Program-made: the position numbers and the translations under genes
The notes under the pieces: model-generated
What the model was told of the DNA's origin: nothing
The model's database searches: none
Seen by the model: only the letters and a program-made list of their open reading frames with translations
Part shown: one piece after another, positions 3,663 through 29,875 of the stretch
Layout of the letters: every line of letters begins with the position of its first letter
How positions within the stretch are numbered: the stretch's first letter is position 1
From: Tubiluchus corallicola
Taxonomy: Eukaryota; Priapulida; Priapulimorpha; Priapulimorphida; Tubiluchidae
Direction: 5' to 3'
Assembly (NCBI GenBank): GCA_030141605.1
Contig: JAQGDQ010000111.1
Coordinates: 124,001-188,000 of the forward strand
Length of the DNA stretch: 64,000 bases

Positions 3663-5590
3663 TTAAGAGCCTTTGAATAATATGTTAAAGAGTATCGGTA
3701 TTGTTAACGCTATTGAACCATATATTAAAACAACCGTTGCTAAGGAGTGTAACTTGATCTTCCACTCGATATCTTCTTGTGTTTCTTCTATTAGTTCCTG
3801 CACTTCTGGCGCAACATACACAATTTGCACATCAGAGTCTTTTTTAGCACGGGCGGCAATTAACGCTTTGATCTCTTTCATGTCCTTTGCCACCTTCTCT
3901 TCCTGACGGTCAACAGTGTCGAGTATCTCACGTGTCTTTGCCTCTAACTCTGGACCTCCAATAGGCTGGCGGTCAAACAGGAGAGTTTTGCCGGCTGCCT
4001 GGTCTTTGAGTATTGACTTCAGATCATCAACGAATGACTGCATCACATTGTACTGCGATTTCAAACTGGATGAAAGCTCTATGATCAAATTTTGCAGTTG
4101 TCCACCACCGGAGTCCGTCACCATACCTTCAAGCTCCTTCAGCCGAATGTGGTTGCTGACCATGGTGGCAATTATTCCAAATATCGCACCGATTATTGAA
4201 CCTATCACAGCCCAGTACTTAGTCTTCTCGGCGTAAGCCCGCTCTTTTTCATGGCTTTCACGTATGGCGGTTGAAAGAACGTGGAACTGGTCCCGTTCAA
4301 GTTTTTCCAGCAAGCTGAACTCTGCCAGCGCAGTCGTTTCTTCTTTGATAATTGCATGCTCTTTTGTCACTAGTTTGAGGTATCGATCCTCTCCTCTGGA
4401 GACTTTGTCAAGTTCGACATGAACATCTTTTAGTCGATATTGGATGTTTTGAATTAGGTTCTGCTGCACACGTCTATTCGATTGCGATTCTGCAAACTTC
4501 TTTTCGACCTGTGTAAGAAGAGAAACTTTTAACACAATCACTGTTTTCCTTCTATACCAGTCAGACACTAAATTTTATGAAGGTTTCTTTGAATGTCTGT
4601 CCGAACAAATATATGGAGCAAGCAACAGGCTGAAAATTTGGTGGGTTTGATATAAAACAGGCTACAATGCGTTTATTTCCAAACATATTGATAATTTGCA
4701 GTTGCTAGGGGCAAACTAACAGTAAATAAAAGTTCGCGAACTCATTATTTTAGAGCAGTATAGGATAAATGTGTTTTGCCTTCCATTCTAGCCATTTCTT
4801 GCATTCAATGATTAAAATCACAAGCTTTAGCATGGAAGTGATTCTGAAATCTTAGTTGATGAGCAGATTAAATTTCTATGATCCAAGAGTAAAATAGTTT
4901 GTCTTGTTACTCGAGTATTGAGTCTTCTGGTTAAATGTCCACCGCGAAAGTGCCTTACTAGCTATGTGCTGCCCTTAAAGTCTATCTACCAAGTTGCTGG
5001 TTTTTATACGCACTGTAAACTGGAATCTGGTCACAGTCCAGCTTTTAACAGCAGGACTAAGGCCTGCTTAACACAGTGTTTGCGGCAAGATCTCAAAACC
5101 TACATATTATCAACTACAGCTACCCAGGATGAGCTCTGAATCAGCAGAGGTGTTTTACTCATATTTGCCTGTATATATATTATCCTTTTTTATAAGGTAA
5201 ACAGCAAACATCAAAGTTCAGTCAGCACGAAGTGAAAAAGAATATCATCTATATCATTGAGTAAGTGACTACACAGGATAATTTTAATTATAACATCCAT
5301 TAACTTTTATTACAGCCTTCCGTATACCGCTGTATATCTGTTTTTCAGGTATCCCGGCTGTAGAGATGGTAAATAGCATACAGTACCTGAAATACTTTCT
5401 CTTGTGCTTGTTTGACTTCTGTGATTCCCATGAAATCCTCAAAAGCTTTCATCAAAGCATTAATTTGTTCCGTGGCTGGTCGTTGATTTGCATACTTAAT
5501 TCCACTCTTAGTTACTTTATTGGAATAAGATCTAAAACGTGATACGTTACGTGCACAAAATCTTATGCGGCTAATCACGTAAGCCGCCAT
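3663..5590 (-). CDS. CCDC51: CCDC51 / MITOK, mitochondrial ATP-sensitive K+ channel pore subunit (2 exons)
   Basis: Exon 1 is 5590-5387 (68 codons, phase 0) and exon 2 is 4508-3663 (281 codons plus TAA), giving 349 aa. The donor CAG|GTACTG and acceptor TTACACAG|GTCG join in frame. Residues 1-25 are Arg-rich with few acids, like a mitochondrial presequence. Residues ~55-160 are charged, heptad-like coiled coil. The family block ERAYAEKTKYWAVIGSIIGA sits at ~157-176, with TM1 ~166-186 and TM2 ~324-346 near the C-terminus. This order (presequence, coiled coil, TM, long charged loop, TM) is that of CCDC51, known in mammals as the MITOK pore of the inner-membrane K-ATP channel that works with ABCB8. 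The protein is somewhat shorter than the ~410-aa human one. The start has purine at -3 and G at +4. It lies head-to-head with ALG12. Function is inferred from family; the exon model is read directly. Confidence 0.9.
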
Positions 5591-5926
5591 TACTCCGAAA
5601 GAAAAAACAGTCGATAAAGTTAATGGTTAGCATTTTGCTGTTTTTGTAAAATAACGGCCAAGAATGTGTTTCAGAACGCCAAAAAATGTTACAGATTTAT
5701 TTCTACTTCACATTTTGTGCAATTTTGCAAAACGCCATTTTTTATAACTTTTGTCGGCTGATTGTGTCAGGGACGTCACAAACCTATCCCAAAATCCAAT
5801 GTAAAAATGTCTGCGCCCTGTTAAAAGCATTTTATATGCTTGATTTTGAAGTTTGTTTGGGTTGTCAAGGAATTTTATTCGGCAGTTACATTGTCTTGTT
5901 CTTACGAGTATGAATTCCAGTTCAAA
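5591..5926. promoter_or_regulatory. shared bidirectional promoter/5'UTR region CCDC51-ALG12
   Basis: Only 336 bp separate the two divergent start codons, so both 5'UTRs and the core promoters must lie here unless there are upstream noncoding exons. No clear TATA box is placed for either gene. Such compact head-to-head arrangements commonly act as bidirectional promoters for housekeeping genes, which both of these are. Transcription starts cannot be located from sequence alone. Confidence 0.65.
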
Positions 5927-8900
5927 ATGCTAGAGTTATTGCCTTTAGTAGTGGCTTTGGTTCACCTTTTGACTTGTCCATTCACGAAAGTGGAGGAGAG
6001 TTTCAACATTCAAGCAATTCACGATTTATTGTACCATGGTTTGAGTATAAATCAGGTGTGTTACTATGATTTTGACTGATATTTCTGTTCAGACACTAGG
6101 TGGCCTTGTACCGCAGGAGTGTTTGTTGCGTCTAAGGCAAAACTGGATCCTATTTGAAACTGTAGGTCAAAACAATCTACTCTAAAATATTGAAAGGAAA
6201 TATACTATTTTTCAAAAATGACTCACATGAAAAAATTATTATTACACAAATGCAGTTTCACGTTCATGCCACTAGTTCTTTGCTGTTGCATGCTTTTTTC
6301 CGCTCGCTAGTTAGATGGGCACTAGCACCTGCTTTTTGGAACGCATGGCATAAATAACAGGTGCTGTACCTCTCAGTTCAGATGTGTTAGTTTATGATGT
6401 ACAACACACGTTCGACAGCTCATGCGTAAGCACAGCAGTTAATTTGAAATTTGAATTTTTATCTTTAAACCTCCTGAGTTTTAGTACAACACACTGAGTC
6501 ACTTAAGTAGTGTTGTACTTAAATTTTCGTTTTCACAAGCACGTGCAACTCGCTGAACATACTGAAAATTAGATTCGTTTGTGATGTCATCAATAGTTGG
6601 GCTCGCCCACCATTAATTAAGATTTTAATCCATTATATAATTATCAAAAATGCGTTTGCAGTATATAAATGTATACTTTTTACTGTACTTAAAAATGGGG
6701 TAGTATATCTTTTCTTCTTTAAGCCTCAATTTATGAAAAATTTTGTACTCTTATGTTTTGCAGTATGACCACTTGGAGTTCCCTGGAGTGGTACCTAGGA
6801 CTTTCATTGGACCAATGCTTGTTAGCAGTCTATCACATCCATTTGTTACAATTGCACATCTACTTCAAGCAAACAAGTTTATAGCTCAAATTATTGGTAA
6901 GGCTTAAAAAGCATGTGGTTTACATGCTTGCTTTACAAAACAGTTGGCAAGGGATGCTTATGAGTTACTAATGGCACATACTTTAGTTCACATGCACAAT
7001 GTTCAAGATTAGCAAAATCGAAAAAAGCCTAATTCGTGACATCAGTAACGTTCTTAGAATTGAAATAAAATGCATAACAAATTTGAAGAGTGGAAATCAA
7101 AAAGTAAAGAAATTTTGGAACTGGTAAAGGATTTTTTAGATTTGTCTAAAAGCTAAGTTACAATTATGATATAGTAATAGTAGTTGTAGTGGTTGTGTTA
7201 GTGGTAGTGGTAGTGGTAGTGGTAATAGTTTCGGTAGCCCTTGATTAGGGATAAAATTACTCTGATTTGTTTTTGACTTACCATCACTATCAGTTCCACA
7301 TACAATTGCTCTTTATTATTTTCCCTTTAACTAAACTGATTCTTGCATAAGACAAAGCCGTGACTTTGAAACCACGAAGAAGTGTGGAATTTTGGGAATA
7401 CAAACGTTGTACATGTTTTTGTTAGCAAAAAGTCGATTTAATGACTAATCTTATGCTGGATGAACTAACTGTTTTCTTATTTTTGCATGTGCGTTTGTCT
7501 GAATTGTGTTATGTATGTACTTATCATCCGATCTGAATTGCTAATTTACCTTTTGCTGAAGGTAATTAAATACTAATAACTCGTAATAGAATTAGTAATA
7601 GATTAGTATTGAGACAGAGATTTGTATATTTAACAGTGACTCTCTAAATCGTAGTTGTTTTCTACTGTTTCAGTTCGCGGTATGCTGGGCATTGTCGTCT
7701 TGGCCTGTTTCTACAAGTTCAGCATGACAGTCAAGAAAAACTTTGGAGTTGCTGTTCACAATTGGCTTATCTTCATCACCTGCAGTCAATTTCATTTTCT
7801 GTTCTACTGCACTAGGCCGTTACCCAACACTTTTGCACTAGCCATCGGTGAGTGATGATGTCACAAATTTTCTAATTTTGGCCTGCTTTTTACATTCAGT
7901 CGATAGACCAAGGTTCACTACTTGTACTTAACATTGATGCCTGTTGTATAACCAGAACCTGATTATCTATGAAGAATAAAATGAGGTATTAAACTGGGAG
8001 AGATGTGTTAGCCATGATTGCATGATGTACACATGTGCCCTCAATGAGCAAAGAGCTTCAGGCAGTATTACCAAAGAAATTACCTTGAGGTCGGGTTTAA
8101 TTAATCTGGTATGCCAAGAAGTCTGATGTTAAGTTGCAAAACAGGTAGCCAAAAATAATTAAAAACCAGTTCAGTAAGACCTCGTTTAACGACGCTAATG
8201 CAAAAGAGGTCGTTAAATGAAGCCAAGACTTCCATAGAAAGCAATGTAAAACAATTGCTTACTTACTAGTGCATGTTTAGAACAGACTTATGCAATACGT
8301 ACTGTTCTAATGCATCAGATTAGATAAAAATGTTGTTCATAAAATAAAAACTTACCTTGAGCAGAGTAAACAAAAAATTGTTGTTAAAGTGAAATGTGCA
8401 TGTTAAATGAGAAAAGGTCAATGTCACTAAATGGGGAGTCGTTAGGCAAGGACTAACTGTGTGTGGACTGCACATTGTGAGACCATTATTCTCGGTTCTT
8501 CCACAGAACAGCTACGTCTTTAAATTCTATGTACAGCCAACTGTGTGTTCAGTGTAATGTCCTAGCAGTTGCACAGCTTGCGGTGGCAAGTCAAGAATGT
8601 GTTGAACTACATGCAAGCGAAATGCTACTGATTTACATTTTGTGTTATTTGCTAGTGTTACATTAGAATGTTCTGTTAAACTGTTATTCTTAACACTTTG
8701 ATCGTCAATTAATTTTGAAATTCAAATCATAGCAAACCATAGGCAGCGAAATAGCCAGAACTGTGCATTACTATATGTGTTATATTTTTGACTTTTAGTT
8801 CTATTAGCTTTGCGTTTCTGGATTAACCAAGATCATCCACGATTCATCCGCTATTCTGCATTTGCCATCGTTGTTTTCCGTAGTGAGCTGTGTGTGTTTC

Positions 8901-11900
8901 TCGGACTCATGTTGCTGCTGGATCTGGTTAACAGACGGGTGACCATTTTAGCAGTTTTAAAAGAGGCCATTCCAGCTGGTCTATTGTGTTTAGGTAAGCA
9001 ATCATAGAAACATGTCTACATGACCTAGAAAAATAATATAAAAGTTTAGGTTTTTTGCTTGACAGGGAATGTACTAGTACTAGAATTAAATTGTATAATA
9101 TCTTATGTCATGTGCATTTTTAGGAAGGTCACTTAGTTGTGTTTTGATGTTGCTTGTTTGGTTTTTATTGAACAAAGTTTCTTGGAACAATTCTGGAAAC
9201 TAGCCAAGTGCAAGAATACCAGATAAAAATGCTGATTGAAAACATAATACTTGAATTGAAACCTGTGGAAATTTGTGATTTTTTATTTTTGTATTCTGTC
9301 ACAAAATTATTTAATCAAGATTTGTAAAGTCGTGTCCATGAGCTTATAAATATATTTTGCAAAGTTTGTCTGTAGCTACATATTTTTTTTAATGCATACT
9401 AGCCTTTACAAGGTCTGCAAGAACTGCGGTCCAATGCCAAAATAAAAAATCATTAAAGACATGCTGTAGTACAGCAGTGGCGGCTCGTAGCTAAAATTAG
9501 TGCGGGTGCTGCTTCAGAAAATTTTTAGCCATTGTTTTAATACTGTGTAAAACAAAACAAACATAAGTAATTTTAATGTTGTAATTTGTAGTCAAACATA
9601 TGAAAGTTTATACATAAACAAGATAAAATCCAAAGCAAAAAAATATTTTCTGCTTACTAATAGCTTAAATTGTTGCAGTTCTAGCTTGGTCCTTTCACGG
9701 TAAGCATGTGACAACTGACAATAAAGTGTGTTAGCGACAGTACTTTCTCTACCTAGGCTGAGACGTGTGCATGGCCGCATATGCACAACGGCTAAACACC
9801 GCATTGCTAGAGCGTGCTGTGCTGGGTTGTGAAGCAAACAGTACAACCCTTACATGCTCTGGCTCTGTACATGTATAAAGAAAGAGCTAAAGAAAAAAGA
9901 CTTTTATTATATTGAATATTATTGATAATATTGAGTGAAAATAAGGGGCGCTGCAGTTTGACAGTACCTATGCATTAGCTGCCTCTGTAGTACAGTCTCT
10001 GGTCTCTGACTGATGTCAATATTCTGTTACTCACAATGTAAGTGTGAACTTTTGATTTAAAAAATCCAAATTTAAAGTAGGATTTTGGAGTACTACTCAG
10101 TTGTAAAGCACTAATATTTAAATTGAGTATACGACTCAAAATTTCTAAAAATTGTTTTGTAAAATATGATATTGCCGTGATAGTGCAAATTGTTGTGTTA
10201 GCAGTGTAATACAATACAAACTAGTTGACAATGTTACTGATGTGGTCAGAAATAGAACCGGGGGAAATCAAGAAGATTCTGCTTGCACTGTATGAAAAAC
10301 AATAAGATTTTGCTATTGTAAAATCTTAACTGTTCTTCAAACTCACCCTAATAAAAAAGAATGACGTGGTCCAGTGAATTTTACATTTCATATTATTCTA
10401 AGAACCATTGTAAGCTATTTTTGTTACGACTATTAAATAAAATAACAGGTTGTATTTTTGCATAGATTTTCTATGAGAAATTGAGAAGTGAATGCGTGTT
10501 ACATAGGCCATTTTGGAGATATGGCAGGCAGCCTGCATAAAATCTTTAAATTAGACTTAAGTTTTTTCAAGCAAAACTGGTTGAGAAGATGGACATTTCA
10601 AAAGCAAAAATAGACATTTCTGCTTTGTCTATAATTGTCTATAAATTGAGCAACTAATGACAGGTTTATAATTATGGTTATCCTTGATAAATAAGATAGG
10701 TTTCAGTTCTGCCACAATGGCCTCCATTAAGTGGACATGCTGGTGAGCTCAGGATTATGGCTTGTAAAGTGCCAAATGTATAAAAAAAAGCAGGTCCAGA
10801 TTACCAAGATGAATTCACACCAAAAGCCAAAAGGTCCCGCCTTTTTGAATTGATTGATAAGTAACTTACTCACTCAGTAAATCCATCTCGGCCTCTATAT
10901 TGACAAATTACCAAATACAATATTCAGTCGGGCCTTGGCTATCGAGTATGGGTATATTGGAAATTACCCAATGGCTAACTGTTCAAGTGGAGTTAGTAAG
11001 TTGTCACAAACAATTTCTTACTGTCATATTTGACTTTTTTTTACAAATTTTCTTATTTTGGTTATTTGCTCAGTTTTCATTTCAAGAATTTTTGTATTCA
11101 TTGCAATGACTGCAACATTGCCAATCTGTTACTCTTTTATAAATTATGGGCTAAACTGAAAAAAATTGTTAATTAATGTCAAGCTAAAGGTTACAGCAAT
11201 TTAAAGCTATGGATTATAAAAGTAATTGTTTCAAGGCATTGTGTTTTGCATTATATTACAAGGACTCAGGTTCAAATATTGGTTCAGCCAGACCTTATTC
11301 TTTCAATGGATTTTTTTCTTTTAGCTTTTACTGTGATGATTGACTCGTATTTTTGGAGACGTCTGATTTGGCCGGAGGGAGAGGTGTTCTGGTACAACAC
11401 GTTCTTAAACAAGAGTAAAAACTGGGGTGTATCCTTTTATCATTGTACTAGAAGGAGATTTCCAGTAATGCCATAACTTCACCTTAACAATGTCTGCAAT
11501 GTTTTAGCAGAAGTGCTGAAATGCCACTGATGTAGCTGATGCGCTGGGCTGACTGCTGGAGATTACTTATTTTAAAAACAGATTTTTTTTTGTAGATTAG
11601 AGATGTGCTTACTGGACATCATCAACACACACGACTGACGTTTGATGATGACATCTGCAATATATTGACAATTTGGCACATCTCTGTCAGAAGTGGGACT
11701 AGTGCTGACTGAACTGCCTGCCATGTTTCTTGTCTTGAGGCAGATTTTACAAGATTTCTCTCGCCCAATTTACCAAGCAGATACAAGATGTGCAGCGCAT
11801 GATTCAATTGCAGAGAAATGGGATGGTCGCCGTGTGTGATATTTGTAAGCTAAGTTAATCACCGATGAGTCTGATTAGTAAATGGATGCATAAGTGGTGC

Positions 11901-14830
11901 TAGGAATATTGATTCTGTGATTTTCATCTGCTTTTTTTTATTGGGAGGGTGTGTCCATGTGCAACCTAATTAGACTAAGTTGTTTCTACTAGTTCAATGC
12001 CTCATTTTAGAAAACGCAATTTTTTCTTTCATACTGAGTGAGGTGCCAGTTCTGCCATAGCCATTAATGTAACAAATAAGCATCACCATTAAGTGCTGAA
12101 TTTTTATTTGTAAATATAAAAATGTACCTTCTTTTTCAGTTATTTCTTCCACCATTTAAGATATGTACGATTTAGTCTTAATCGGTTTTGTTAGTTACTT
12201 GGTCAAAATCATTAGATCAATGGTTCAATGTTCAGTTACAGCTCAGCCTGAGTTCACAGTAATGAACCTTCAATGAACACAGTAATCCACATCCAAAGGT
12301 ACTTTTCACAGTAAAAAAGTTAATTATCTAAATATGTTACTATGGCATATTACTTTATGAGCAAATTTTACATAAATAAATAAATCTGCAACCGACTTCC
12401 CAGCTCAATAACCAAGCTTTAGGGGCATTTGCTCACATTACGAAGTTATAGCTAGCACTTACCTGCTACTAAAATTTTTTGTAATTGCAAAAGGTGAGTT
12501 GCGTAAACTTTACCGCAGATTTTTTTCTACTATACCTATGTAGAAATTATTTTTTTATTAACAATGATTTTTTAATTAATGCAAAATGACTATAATTCCT
12601 TTTTTCCTTAACAGAATTTACAGACAATGCCTTTTCTTTGGTACTTCTACTCCGCTATTCCACGCGTGCTACTTGGTTCGTTGCTATTTGTTCCTATCGG
12701 TGCTTATTTAGACAGTCGAATGCGAACTCTATTATTTCCTTGTCTAGGATTTTTGCTTCTGTATTCCTTGTTACCCCACAAAGAACTCAGGTTCATCATC
12801 TACGTAGTGCCATTGCTGAATGTAGCCGCAGCAAAAGCATGTTGTGTCATGTAAGTATTTGTTCTGGAAATGCTATTGCAGCACTTGTGGCATTTAATTT
12901 GGTGACACGCCATCAGCTGTAATTGTCAGGTCAAGTTGTATTCGGCAAAAATCATTTTTGTGCCATTCAAATGCAGTTGACGTAGATTTCATGGATAGCA
13001 AAAATTGGTTGCAAAAAATTGATAGCAAACCGCAATAGTCTGGCAATGAAAGTCGTAATTAATTGATGATATCGTTAGTTGCCAGCTAATTTAGGAAAGT
13101 ACTGAGTATAAGTATCTCCCTACTGTCGTGGATACAGGTGGCGCTGTTGGAATGTGAGCTACAAGGAGGAAATCTCAGCCCTACTTGGTCATGTTGACTC
13201 GTATCTCAGCTGATCGAAGATGGGATTACTAATCCCATCATCCCAGTTTAAATCTCAACTAGTCCACAATTTCTCCTTTCTCTAACTCCAATTATCCGCA
13301 TTTGATAATAATTGGTAAAATAAACTCCAATGGTTTATAAAAAGCTGGCAATCACAGTCATAATTGACTAATGATTTCTTGGATTATTTTATGTAGTTTA
13401 AATAACTGCCAGTTGTGTTCGGCACATCCACAATGAAAATTAATTGTAAAAGAAATGGAAACTCAGATGGCTTGAGCTAGATTTGCCAACATGCAGTCAG
13501 TGTTATTAAATTATCGTCAACGACATTCTTGTCTAACTACAATTTTTTTTCCAGTTACGAAAATCGCGTCAAGTCGTGGCACCATCTAATGATGGGGTTA
13601 GGAGTTATGATACACATTATGCTCAATATTATGTTGACTAGTGATATTTTATACATATCCAGCATGAACTATCCCGGTGGGGAAGGCATAGCAGCCCTGC
13701 ACTTGTATGAACCATCATCTCAGTGTAAGTGTATAACTTTACACACTACTGTCCAAAAAAAATAAACATTTTCGTTTTAAATATTGGTACTAAAACATCT
13801 TACCGTTTTTATATTTTAGCTGGGTCATTTAAATTTAAGTGAATTTAGGTCAATAGGAATAGTTAAGTACCTATGATGCATGGTAAACTGTGTGCCTAGT
13901 GACCGAAGTTAAGCAACACTGGCTTGGTTAATAAATAAATGGACGACTGCCAGAAAAGCTATTTTTGTGATGATTTCATTTGCCTTTCTGCTTTCTGTTA
14001 TTTTGCTCATTGAGAGAGGATGTATAGGCATCTGGCTGCGGCCAAGACACCCCTGTTGGGTTAGTATTTTGCCTTAAACATTGTTGATATAGCATTTTGC
14101 CTTAAAAATTGTTTTCGTAGTAATAAGAAACTTCTGATTTTGCCACAACAATTTGCATTAAGTAGATCCTGCCATTAAGTACTGGATAATTTTCTGGAGT
14201 AGTGAAGATTATTATATAGCTAGTTATCAACGGTAACTTACGGAAGTGTTAGACATGTCTTAAACAGGCTTATTTGGGTGTACTGTCAACAACATAAATG
14301 GCAGGCAGATGAACACTATGGCTGACAAAACTATCCAGAGGCAATTTTCACGGTGGTTGTCAATTAACTTATTAGCTGGCTCAGACCTTCATTCATTAAT
14401 TACATACCGGGCCCACCCAGTTTGGTATAATTTGGATTTTGTCACTATGATGTTTATGTGATTGTTAGAACTGATAGTAAAATTTCTTTCAGATGTAAAT
14501 GTGCATATCAATGAATACACGGCACAGACCGGAGTTACACGGTTCACACAGCTCCATAACCATTGGACTTATAATAAAACTGAGAATTTACACCCGAAAA
14601 GCTTAGAAATACAGCAGTTTACTCATCTGCTAGTAGGTGGCCTTAGTGAGCACGATGTGTTACAGTTGTATAAACACTCACATCACATACAGGTGCACAT
14701 AAAAGGTTTTAAGCGGCTGAAAATCGACTGGAGCCAGTTTCCGTTCGTGTTCATTGAGACAGAAACCAAAGTTTTTCTGCTGAAACGTGAAAAAGTGCTG
14801 TCTGTGCTGAGCAACTCGTATGTTGCATGA
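5927..14830 (+). CDS. ALG12: ALG12 alpha-1,6-mannosyltransferase (8 exons, complete)
   Basis: ER multi-pass GT22-family enzyme that uses dolichyl-P-mannose to add the eighth mannose (alpha-1,6) to Man7GlcNAc2-PP-dolichol in N-glycan precursor assembly. Exons: 5927-6055, 6764-6896, 7674-7847, 8799-8993, 11325-11428, 12624-12850, 13555-13724, 14493-14830. Phases run 0,1,1,1,0,2,1 and sum to 1470 nt, or 489 aa, essentially the length of human ALG12. Family landmarks: VEESFN near residue 22, [14 protein letters not shown] at 44-57 across the exon 1/2 join, FRSELC and NYPGG blocks, and the GT22 signature HKELRF at ~297-302, plus repeated hydrophobic spans. The first luminal-loop acidic pair EE is intact. 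The start at 5927 is preferred because the upstream in-frame ATG at 5840 adds 29 residues absent from the family; the chosen ATG has A at -3. Intron 5 is U12-type. The rest are GT-AG U2-type. Confidence 0.96.
6137..6709 (+). repeat. unclassified interspersed repeat, copy 1 (in ALG12 intron 1)
   Basis: About 570 bp align end to end, by eye at roughly 75-80 percent, with 31791-32387 in the same orientation. Landmarks shared by both include CGTTCGACAGCTCATGCG, TTTTAGTACAACACACTGA and a terminal GGGTAGTATAT. It has no coding capacity. A partial inverted similarity (ATACTAC-type near 6203 and at the 3' end) hints at a DNA-transposon-derived element, but homology continues about 60 bp outside it. 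Confidence 0.8.
7182..7232 (+). repeat. GTGGTA-type simple repeat
   Basis: Imperfect hexanucleotide/trinucleotide run (GTAGTGGTAGTGG pattern) inside ALG12 intron 2. No other role is visible. Confidence 0.8.
8172..8459 (+). mobile_element. pogo/Tigger-like MITE in ALG12 intron 3
   Basis: 288-bp noncoding element with terminal inverted repeats. The left end starts CAGTAAGACCTCGTTTAACG and the right end, reversed, starts CAGTTAGTCCTTGCCTAACG; 18 of the first 24 positions match. The CAGT start and CCTCG-type body resemble TIRs of pogo/Tigger elements. A subterminal copy of GAGGTCGTTAAATGA sits at ~8205. A clean TA target duplication is not visible, so it is probably old. Confidence 0.65.
11429..12623 (+). 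other. U12-type (minor spliceosome) intron of ALG12
   Basis: ALG12 intron 5 begins GTATCCTTTT, the U12 5' splice site consensus (RTATCCTTT). It carries TTCCTTAAC at 12604-12612, matching the U12 branch consensus, with the branch adenosine about 12 nt from the AG at 12622-12623. A nearer AG at 12613-12614 is too close to the branch and out of frame. Using the distal AG restores the family sequence [14 protein letters not shown] across the junction. Confidence 0.92.
13883..13960 (+). repeat. decayed 5S rRNA-derived SINE fragment
   Basis: Contains GACCGAAGTTAAGCAACA followed by GGCTTGGTTAATA and ATGGACGACTGCC, collinear with the internal promoter half of 5S rRNA but with many substitutions. It lies inside ALG12 intron 7. 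It is too diverged to be a gene and is best read as an old relative of the 15.9-kb 5S-headed SINE. Confidence 0.65.
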
Positions 14831-14959: not shown

Positions 14960-15924
14960 TAAATTCATTTAGCTACTGCCTTGAAGACTCACATCTGTCA
15001 CCTGTTAGATGTTTCTGCAACCAAACATGTTAACATTATTACTGCAAGAGAACTCTCCATGGAGAAGCACCAGTTTAGTCCAAAACTGTGTTTATAACAA
15101 AACTGTAGCTTTGGCTTGCACACTTATTTCGTGTAAAAACATTGCCATTAAAATCATGTTAATATGTTTTGTCGTACCATTACCATTTTGTGATAAGAAT
15201 TGTAAGTTAAATGTACTATGGCACTTACCAAAGTAAAACTATGTTCAGATATAAATCTGTTTTTGTGTATGTGTTAAAGCTCATCATGGCGTGTGCAATT
15301 GATGCACGTCAGTCTCAGAGCACAAATGTTGAACTGCTTCAAAGCAACGTAGTCCTTCTTCTATTTGCTCCCAGATATTATTATTATTCTTAGAAGTCAC
15401 TATTACACCATGAATTCATCAAGTTACTGATCTACCTTTTCCTGCTTAGCCATGCATTGTTACTTGAAAGAAAGCAAAAAATGACACAGTTATAAGTTCA
15501 TTTGCGTGCATTGTTGTATAAATTATGAGCTATTGCTGTTTTTTGTTTGGAATGTTCGGGAGCATTAAGAAAAAATGACGCAGTGTTACAGGAATGCTTA
15601 TTGAAGGTACTTTAGCATGCAGCTCACTCGTTCGCTCTAAGTTTAAGTTGAAGTTTTTCTATTATAAAAGTCTCTGCCTTGCTAGCTTTTTGTTTAGATG
15701 TGATATCATCATCTTTCGTAACTCACAGTGCTTCATACTTTTTTGCCTATCTTATCCAACCACACCTTTTGTAACTGCTATTTTGATCTGAACCATGGGA
15801 TATATATATATATATATATATAGAGGATGTTTTCTACTTCCTTTCTGTGTTAATTGAAACAACTTACATTCTTTTAATATTTTGACTGTCCTGTTTTACC
15901 TGGTTCCATTGTTATCAATGACTT
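14960..15924. other. intergenic stretch after ALG12
   Basis: No gene recognised. It includes a (TA)11 microsatellite at 15801-15822. Short open frames lack support. Confidence 0.6.
15801..15822. repeat. (TA)11 microsatellite
   Basis: Pure TA dinucleotide run seen directly. Confidence 0.95.
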
Positions 15925-15938
15925 CATTCAGCCCTCCC

Positions 15939-16347
15939 ATATCACATTGAAAACACCGGTTCTCGTCTGATCACCGAAGTTAAGCAACATAGAGCCTGGT
16001 TAGTACTTAGATGGGTGATCGCCTAGGAATACCAGGTGCTGTAAGCTTGCGGGATGCCCACACTTTATCTCGACACTAGGCGGAGGAGCTGCACAAGCAG
16101 CCAACAGCTAGAGGGTGGAGGAGGTCAAGTGATCCAACGGCCATGTGTAGAGGAGTAGACCTTCCAAATAAGGAGTGGAGCACCAAAGGCGAACCAGTGC
16201 AGGCCACTCCATTGGTTCAAGGATCGGATTGCTCAGCCACAATCGACGCTGCAGCTCCATCAATACGATCAATAACTAACTCTCTTGGCGGCACACACTC
16301 CATTGTCTTCCGAGACAGAAGGATGCCAACAACAACAACAACAACAA
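15939..16347 (+). mobile_element. 5S rRNA-headed SINE (SINE3 type) with (CAA)n tail
   Basis: The first ~110 bp (to ~16048) follow 5S rRNA closely, including TCTGATCACCGAAGTTAAGC, GCCTGGTTAGTACTTAGATG and GGAATACCAGGTGCTGTAAG, so the type-1 Pol III internal promoter blocks are largely intact. A ~280-bp unrelated body follows, ending in GATGCC(AAC)n at ~16323-16347. The flanks CATTCAGCCCTCCC (15925-15938) and CATTCAACCCTCCC (16348-16361) match at 13 of 14 and look like a target-site duplication. The 5S part then starts near 5S nucleotide 10. The GCC..CC part of the left flank could alternatively be 5S sequence. It is non-autonomous, and mobilisation would need a partner LINE recognising its 3' end. 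Confidence 0.85.
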
Positions 16348-28547: not shown

Positions 28548-29875
28548 TGTATGTATGTAGTTTATTGACTAAATCAAATTACATGTATACATGAAGAACG
28601 AGGTAAATGCCACAATCGATACATTAGTGATTTTAGTCCAAATGTCACTTTACGCACATTTTCTACTCAAGGTTACAACAATAAAAACAGTGTTATGCAT
28701 ACAATGTAAAATTTTTTTTAACGAACACAACTGTAAAGCTACAAGCAAAATGCCTATACGCAGAACTGATATACACCATTTATACACTTTATTACACGTC
28801 ATTCACTTCATACTAGTTAGTACGTCAGCATAAAAGTTGCAAATTTCATGACATATTATGTAACAATTCTGGTGCTCAAAGAAGTGAGTTAAGTCAGCAA
28901 AGTTTACATTGTCGTAGCGGTTTCTAATATTAGATGTTAAGGGGCATGTCTGTATAAGGTGTTTCTCAGTTTGAATGTCCCCACAAGGACATAGTCTATT
29001 TTCCCTTGGTTGTCTCGCCCATCTACCCGTTTCTCTCCGCAGCCTATGTGACTGAAGACGCTAAAGGTTTGTGGCCAAAGCATTTCTCATAAGCTTTGCC
29101 TGTATTTTCTGCTGCCTAGACCGTAACCAAACTAAAACAACTGGGTATCCAGGTTCTATTAAAGCAAGGTCGTTTACAGGTAGTCTGTCTGACGCCCAAT
29201 GAAGCCTTGATTAACCCCATATACGTAGAGCAGGGGATATAAGTCCTATTATCAGTATTCCAACTCTGGGAACTGTAGAATATTGCCGTCAACAGCGCAC
29301 AATCTAGGACTCTTTTCTTCACATAATAAGGAAAATCTTTGTTTTTCCTCAAGAAAGCTTAAAACTTCAAAATTGCAACTGCATTCTTTTCTTGCATATG
29401 TTTGACTATTGAATCAGTCTTCCCGTCATCTGTAATAGCAGCTCCTAAATAAACATACGCAGACGTGCGCTTAATTTGGAAATCTGTCATTGTCATAGGC
29501 TGGTCATCCGCTACATCACCGTTTGCCACCATGAACTGAGTCTTAGTATGGTTCATCGTCATCTCATTGTTGTCACAAAATGATTGTAAACACTCCAATT
29601 TTATGTTACATTGTTCACGGTTTGATGCCAATATAACCGTGTCATCCATCATTAGGTATACTTGTGAATCCCCTAACCAACCATTCGTACCAGTGGCCTT
29701 CAATGATGTTATAAGTGGATTGGCATAGATACAGAACAGGATGCATGAGCTCTGAGCACCTTGCTTTATACCGCCATTATAGGCAATTACATTTGTTCCT
29801 AACAAGCTTTTCGTTGAATCAAACATTGAACCTATGTTTAGACAAGCCTTTAATGTGATCTTAAGATTTGCTTAG
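28548..29875 (-). mobile_element. decayed, 5'-truncated non-LTR retrotransposon (LINE)
   Basis: On the minus strand, 29826-29362 encodes the RT palm. It has a YNGGIKQGAQSSCILFCIYA-type segment and LMMDDTVILA, where the usual YADD is MMDD but both aspartates remain. A TAA at 29361-29359 interrupts the frame. The same frame then resumes with FLRKNKDFPYYVKKRVLD. A frameshift near 29165 leads to NDLALIEPGYPVV and IQAKLMRNALATN. Farther down, ~29040-28880 encodes CPCGDIQTEKHLIQTC, the C-terminal zinc-knuckle typical of these elements. The 3' end has AATAAA (28566-28561) and a CATACATACATC tail. A stop just upstream near 29875 marks the 5' truncation. It is clearly dead. The clade is not assigned. 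Confidence 0.85.

Follow-up and report, generated by a model that had tools for sequence, protein, structure and literature searches.

The question raised by this locus is whether one intron of an ALG12-like gene in the priapulid Tubiluchus corallicola is removed by the minor rather than the major spliceosome. The gene lies on the plus strand of the window, which is the whole 64,000-nucleotide stretch analysed here (contig JAQGDQ010000111.1, positions 124,001 to 188,000), and the intron in question is its fifth (11429-12623, numbered, as are all window positions below, from the first base of the window).

Gene model and genomic context

The ALG12-like gene is complete within the window, with eight coding exons on the plus strand at 5927-6055 (start codon to LSINQ), 6764-6896, 7674-7847, 8799-8993, 11325-11428 (NWG at its end, last base T), 12624-12850, 13555-13724 and 14493-14830 (including the stop). 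Together these form a single open frame of 1470 nt encoding 489 aa, and introns 1 to 7 have phases 0, 1, 1, 1, 0, 2 and 1. All exon borders belong to a gene model picked by eye using homology and splice sites, with homology noted specifically for exons 1 and 6 and the junction scan described below for exon 5.

The 489-aa protein matches Pfam family PF03901 (Alg9-like mannosyltransferase family, 3.8e-54) and, by phmmer, PDB chain 9s6t_A over residues 3-476 (E 1.4e-152), compared with a weaker match to a protein labelled ALG9 (E 7.3e-06). The label of 9s6t_A is 'Mannosyltransferase' only, the name ALG12 stands on none of the database matches, a literature search on the PDB code of this chain, made to confirm the name, found nothing, and the prokaryote library NCBIfam returned 0 families. 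We take the protein to be probably ALG12 from its conserved block and from its naming in the initial annotation.

Several other features of the window were recorded. Head to head with ALG12 on the minus strand lies a coiled-coil-like protein with membrane-like stretches (3663-4574 and about 5345-5626), which presumably resembles CCDC51 (MITOK); its larger ORF has no match in Pfam. The interval 15924-16330 (+) consists of a full-length 5S rRNA match (80.3 bits) and, after it, some 280 nt that by eye end in a CAA repeat; this element may be a SINE derived from 5S and not a functional 5S gene. A partial 5S-like stretch in ALG12 intron 7 (13872-13956, +) aligns with this match at 15940-16029 with a local score of 55; the resemblance may be due to chance, as unrelated-looking places also score 49-58, and the two stretches were not matched to each other by the repeat finder. 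At 28803-29871 (-) there are interrupted open frames that, again by eye, have features like those of a non-LTR reverse transcriptase, and a tRNA scan of the window returned 0 hits.

Splice signals of intron 5

Intron 5 is 1195 nt long, in phase 0, and sits after residue 245, where it parts NWG from T within a conserved block common to 9s6t_A, in which the block reads NWGTSPFFWYFYSA. At its 5' border exonic GGT is followed by the U12-type donor GTATCCTTTT (11429-11438, +), the first eight bases of which match the U12 consensus RTATCCTT at 8/8 positions, compared with 2-4/8 in the other six ALG12 introns. A U12-type branch element, TTCCTTAAC, lies at 12604-12612 (+) and matches TTCCTTRAC at 9/9 positions, compared with best matches of 4-6/9 in the other six. 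The 3' end TTCCTTAACAGAATTTACAG closes with the splice site ACAG (12620-12623, +), after which exon 6 opens with ACA. Counted back from the last intron base, the candidate branch adenosines at 12610 and 12611 lie 13 and 12 nt away and the branch element ends at 11 nt, all within the published optimum for branch distance of 11-13 nt (PMC3584512). The initial annotation had given exactly these intron coordinates and had described both donor and branch element as fitting the U12 consensus, and on both counts our analysis agrees.

Agreement with the U2-type donor is poor, as intron 5 matches GTAAGT at only 3/6 positions and carries C at +5 and +6 where the U2 form has GT. The other six introns are all U2-like, each donor matching GTAAGT at 4-6/6 positions, which bears out an earlier statement to that effect covering those donors that had been checked. 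The exon base at position -1 of intron 5 is T; U12-type sites show an excess of T there, unlike U2-type sites, which have G (PMC7367187). The intron resembles the GT-AG subtype of U12 introns, in which an ATCCTT donor is combined with the branch element near the 3' end (PMC4667643, PMC3584512); the U12DB-derived consensus in the methods of PMC4667643 gives an ATCCTT donor and a TTTCCTT[A/G]AC branch. The only departure seen is phase 0, the less common phase among minor introns, at ~22% on average (PMC10639083).

Chance expectation and predicted snRNA pairing

Free-standing motif matches were rejected as evidence for a U12-type intron, because their counts in the 64-kb window are at chance level: RTATCCTTT was found once (1.34 expected), TTCCTTRAY three times (3.03 expected) and the branch motif followed by YAG (TTCCTTAACN{5,25}YAG) once (0.42 expected), so that motifs alone prove nothing. 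It could accordingly be argued that the major spliceosome removes intron 5, the termini of which are after all GT-AG, and that the U12-like motifs are a coincidence or a relic, given that 64 kb should by chance contain about one nine-base donor motif and about 0.4 branch motifs with YAG. The argument fares poorly once donor and branch are considered jointly as signals of a single intron whose borders the protein sets. A chance match of both has a probability of 1.9e-8 for a given intron and 1.3e-7 over seven introns, or 2.9e-7 over seven with 3'-tail composition as the null; these figures assume independence and hold to an order of magnitude only. The null model used base composition and 12 permitted branch positions, and was conditional on the protein-defined intron.

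Duplex predictions also bear on this point. With a standard U1 end, the intron 5 donor is predicted to pair with U1 at -3.7, the weakest of the seven donors (others -7.5 to -10.2), which together with the C residues at +5 and +6 speaks further against recognition as a U2-type intron. Using the genome's own U11 and U6atac, the intron 5 donor is predicted to pair at -6.1 with U11 (other six -2.4 to +0.9) and at -7.6 with U6atac (other six -1.2 to +2.5). The predicted U12 branch duplex failed as a discriminator, since intron 5 (-9.2) falls within the range of the others (-2.9 to -10.2), two of which are stronger (-10.0 and -10.2); this failure arises because U-rich tracts and tails also pair with U12. 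The predicted energies of the U4atac-U6atac (-40.4) and U12-U6atac (-7.1) duplexes are values without a control. Weighing these observations, we consider removal of intron 5 by the major spliceosome very improbable, and the initial description of a U12-type intron in ALG12 holds, in that the intron is best read as GT-AG U12-type with a joint chance of about 1e-7 for its paired signals.

Choice of splice junction

Donors from 11400 to 11459 were combined with acceptors from 12590 to 12659 in a scan for GT-AG, GC-AG and AT-AC terminal pairs, of which six (2 GT-AG, 4 AT-AC) keep the reading frame. Conserved length is kept by two of the six, namely 11429/12623 and the AT-AC pair 11431/12625. AT-AC introns of the minor type have a donor of the form ATATCC; the 11431/12625 pair has ATCCTT instead and would change T to V.

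The GT-AG pair that competes for the 3' end uses the AG at 12613-12614 (+), which keeps the frame with the donor at 11429 without introducing a stop. An intron of U12-type in which this AG is mainly or partly the 3' end used would, however, place the splice site only 3-4 nt beyond the branch adenosines, far under the 11-13 nt optimum (PMC3584512), and would insert three residues (NLQ) into a block that 9s6t_A has without them, making use of this site highly unlikely. All five pairs other than 11429/12623 were judged less plausible, and the latter is the best of the candidate junctions on the scanned sequence. The initial annotation had called this junction required to keep the conserved block in frame; the junction itself stands, while 'required' is slightly too strong because other pairs, including that at AG 12614, also keep the frame.

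Minor-spliceosome snRNAs

The source genome (343.5 Mb, 2344 contigs) was searched with Rfam models for the four snRNAs specific to the minor spliceosome, and all were found above their gathering thresholds: U12 with at least one match (105.9 bits, gathering 53), U11 with at least one (101.7 bits, gathering 39), U4atac with at least one (86.0 bits, gathering 53) and U6atac with at least two (112.4 and 74.0 bits, gathering 33). Copy counts are lower bounds, as the best 40 to 49 of many thousand candidates were scored per search. According to the alignments, every match spans the full length of its Rfam model. The 112.4-bit U6atac retains the donor-pairing AAAGGAGAGAAGG stretch. The 74.0-bit copy (L004 1501-1624, minus strand, G000:C1024) has changes in this stretch and may be a pseudogene. 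A search of the same assembly for mitochondrial COX1 gave no match. The initial annotation, which took the intron to show that this organism retains the minor spliceosome, had named absence of these snRNAs as a finding against its U12-type reading; all four are present.

Proposed splicing of intron 5

Intron 5 combines a U12-type donor, a branch element at the proper distance and the lack of a strong U2-type donor with a host genome that encodes the relevant snRNAs. In favour of the U12-type assignment we also counted the full gene model, the position within a conserved block and a branch distance inside the published optimum, and against it the minority phase 0, the second in-frame AG at 12614 and the non-discriminating U12 duplex. 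Taken together, the sequence evidence indicates that ALG12 intron 5 (11429-12623) almost certainly belongs to the GT-AG subtype of U12-type (minor) introns and is spliced out by the minor spliceosome. The donor and branch element would be recognised jointly by U11 and U12, U6atac would then take the place of U11 at the donor, the branch adenosine at 12610 or 12611 would attack G11429, and exons 5 and 6 would be joined at 11428/12624. These steps are established knowledge of minor splicing. What is directly observed here is the splice signals and the genes for the four snRNAs, and we infer that intron 5 follows this route.

Origin and significance of the ALG12 minor intron

Human ALG12 has a minor intron, retained at 38.5% in affected samples with RNU4ATAC variants against 8.0% in unaffected ones (PMC4667643), and its removal depends on the minor spliceosome according to patient RNA-seq (PMC4667643, Table 3 row). 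The human gene, whose minor intron is retained in Roifman syndrome cells, shares with the T. corallicola gene its name and the possession of a minor intron; PMC4667643 was the only paper found on ALG12 as a minor-intron gene. 'ALG12' is absent from the main text of PMC2426677, PMC10639083, PMC7367187, PMC6717393 and PMC9501576, as is 'ALG' from that of PMC2831892. Fly and plant gene identifiers occurred in none of the 15 papers listed out of 167.

Minor-intron type is reported to be strongly conserved among vertebrates (PMC2831892), and 20 U12 positions are common to human and Arabidopsis (PMC2426677), so that an ancient shared ALG12 intron is the default expectation. Given the minor intron in human ALG12, intron 5 is most probably ancient and was inherited within this gene, and the human and T. 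corallicola positions presumably coincide. We hypothesise, with somewhat better than even confidence, that the ALG12 minor intron has occupied a single phase-0 position since the common ancestor with vertebrates, its signals unweakened.

As a minor intron, intron 5 is clean yet unremarkable: its class is known, and human ALG12 had already been reported to carry a minor intron (PMC4667643). The present analysis documents, in this genome, a minor intron with near-ideal signals and genes for U11, U12, U4atac and U6atac. For a minor-intron gene of relevance to disease it supplies a data point from outside human, while changing no general view. If the hypothesis of a single ancestral phase-0 position is true, ALG12 could serve across animals to mark where the minor spliceosome has been retained.
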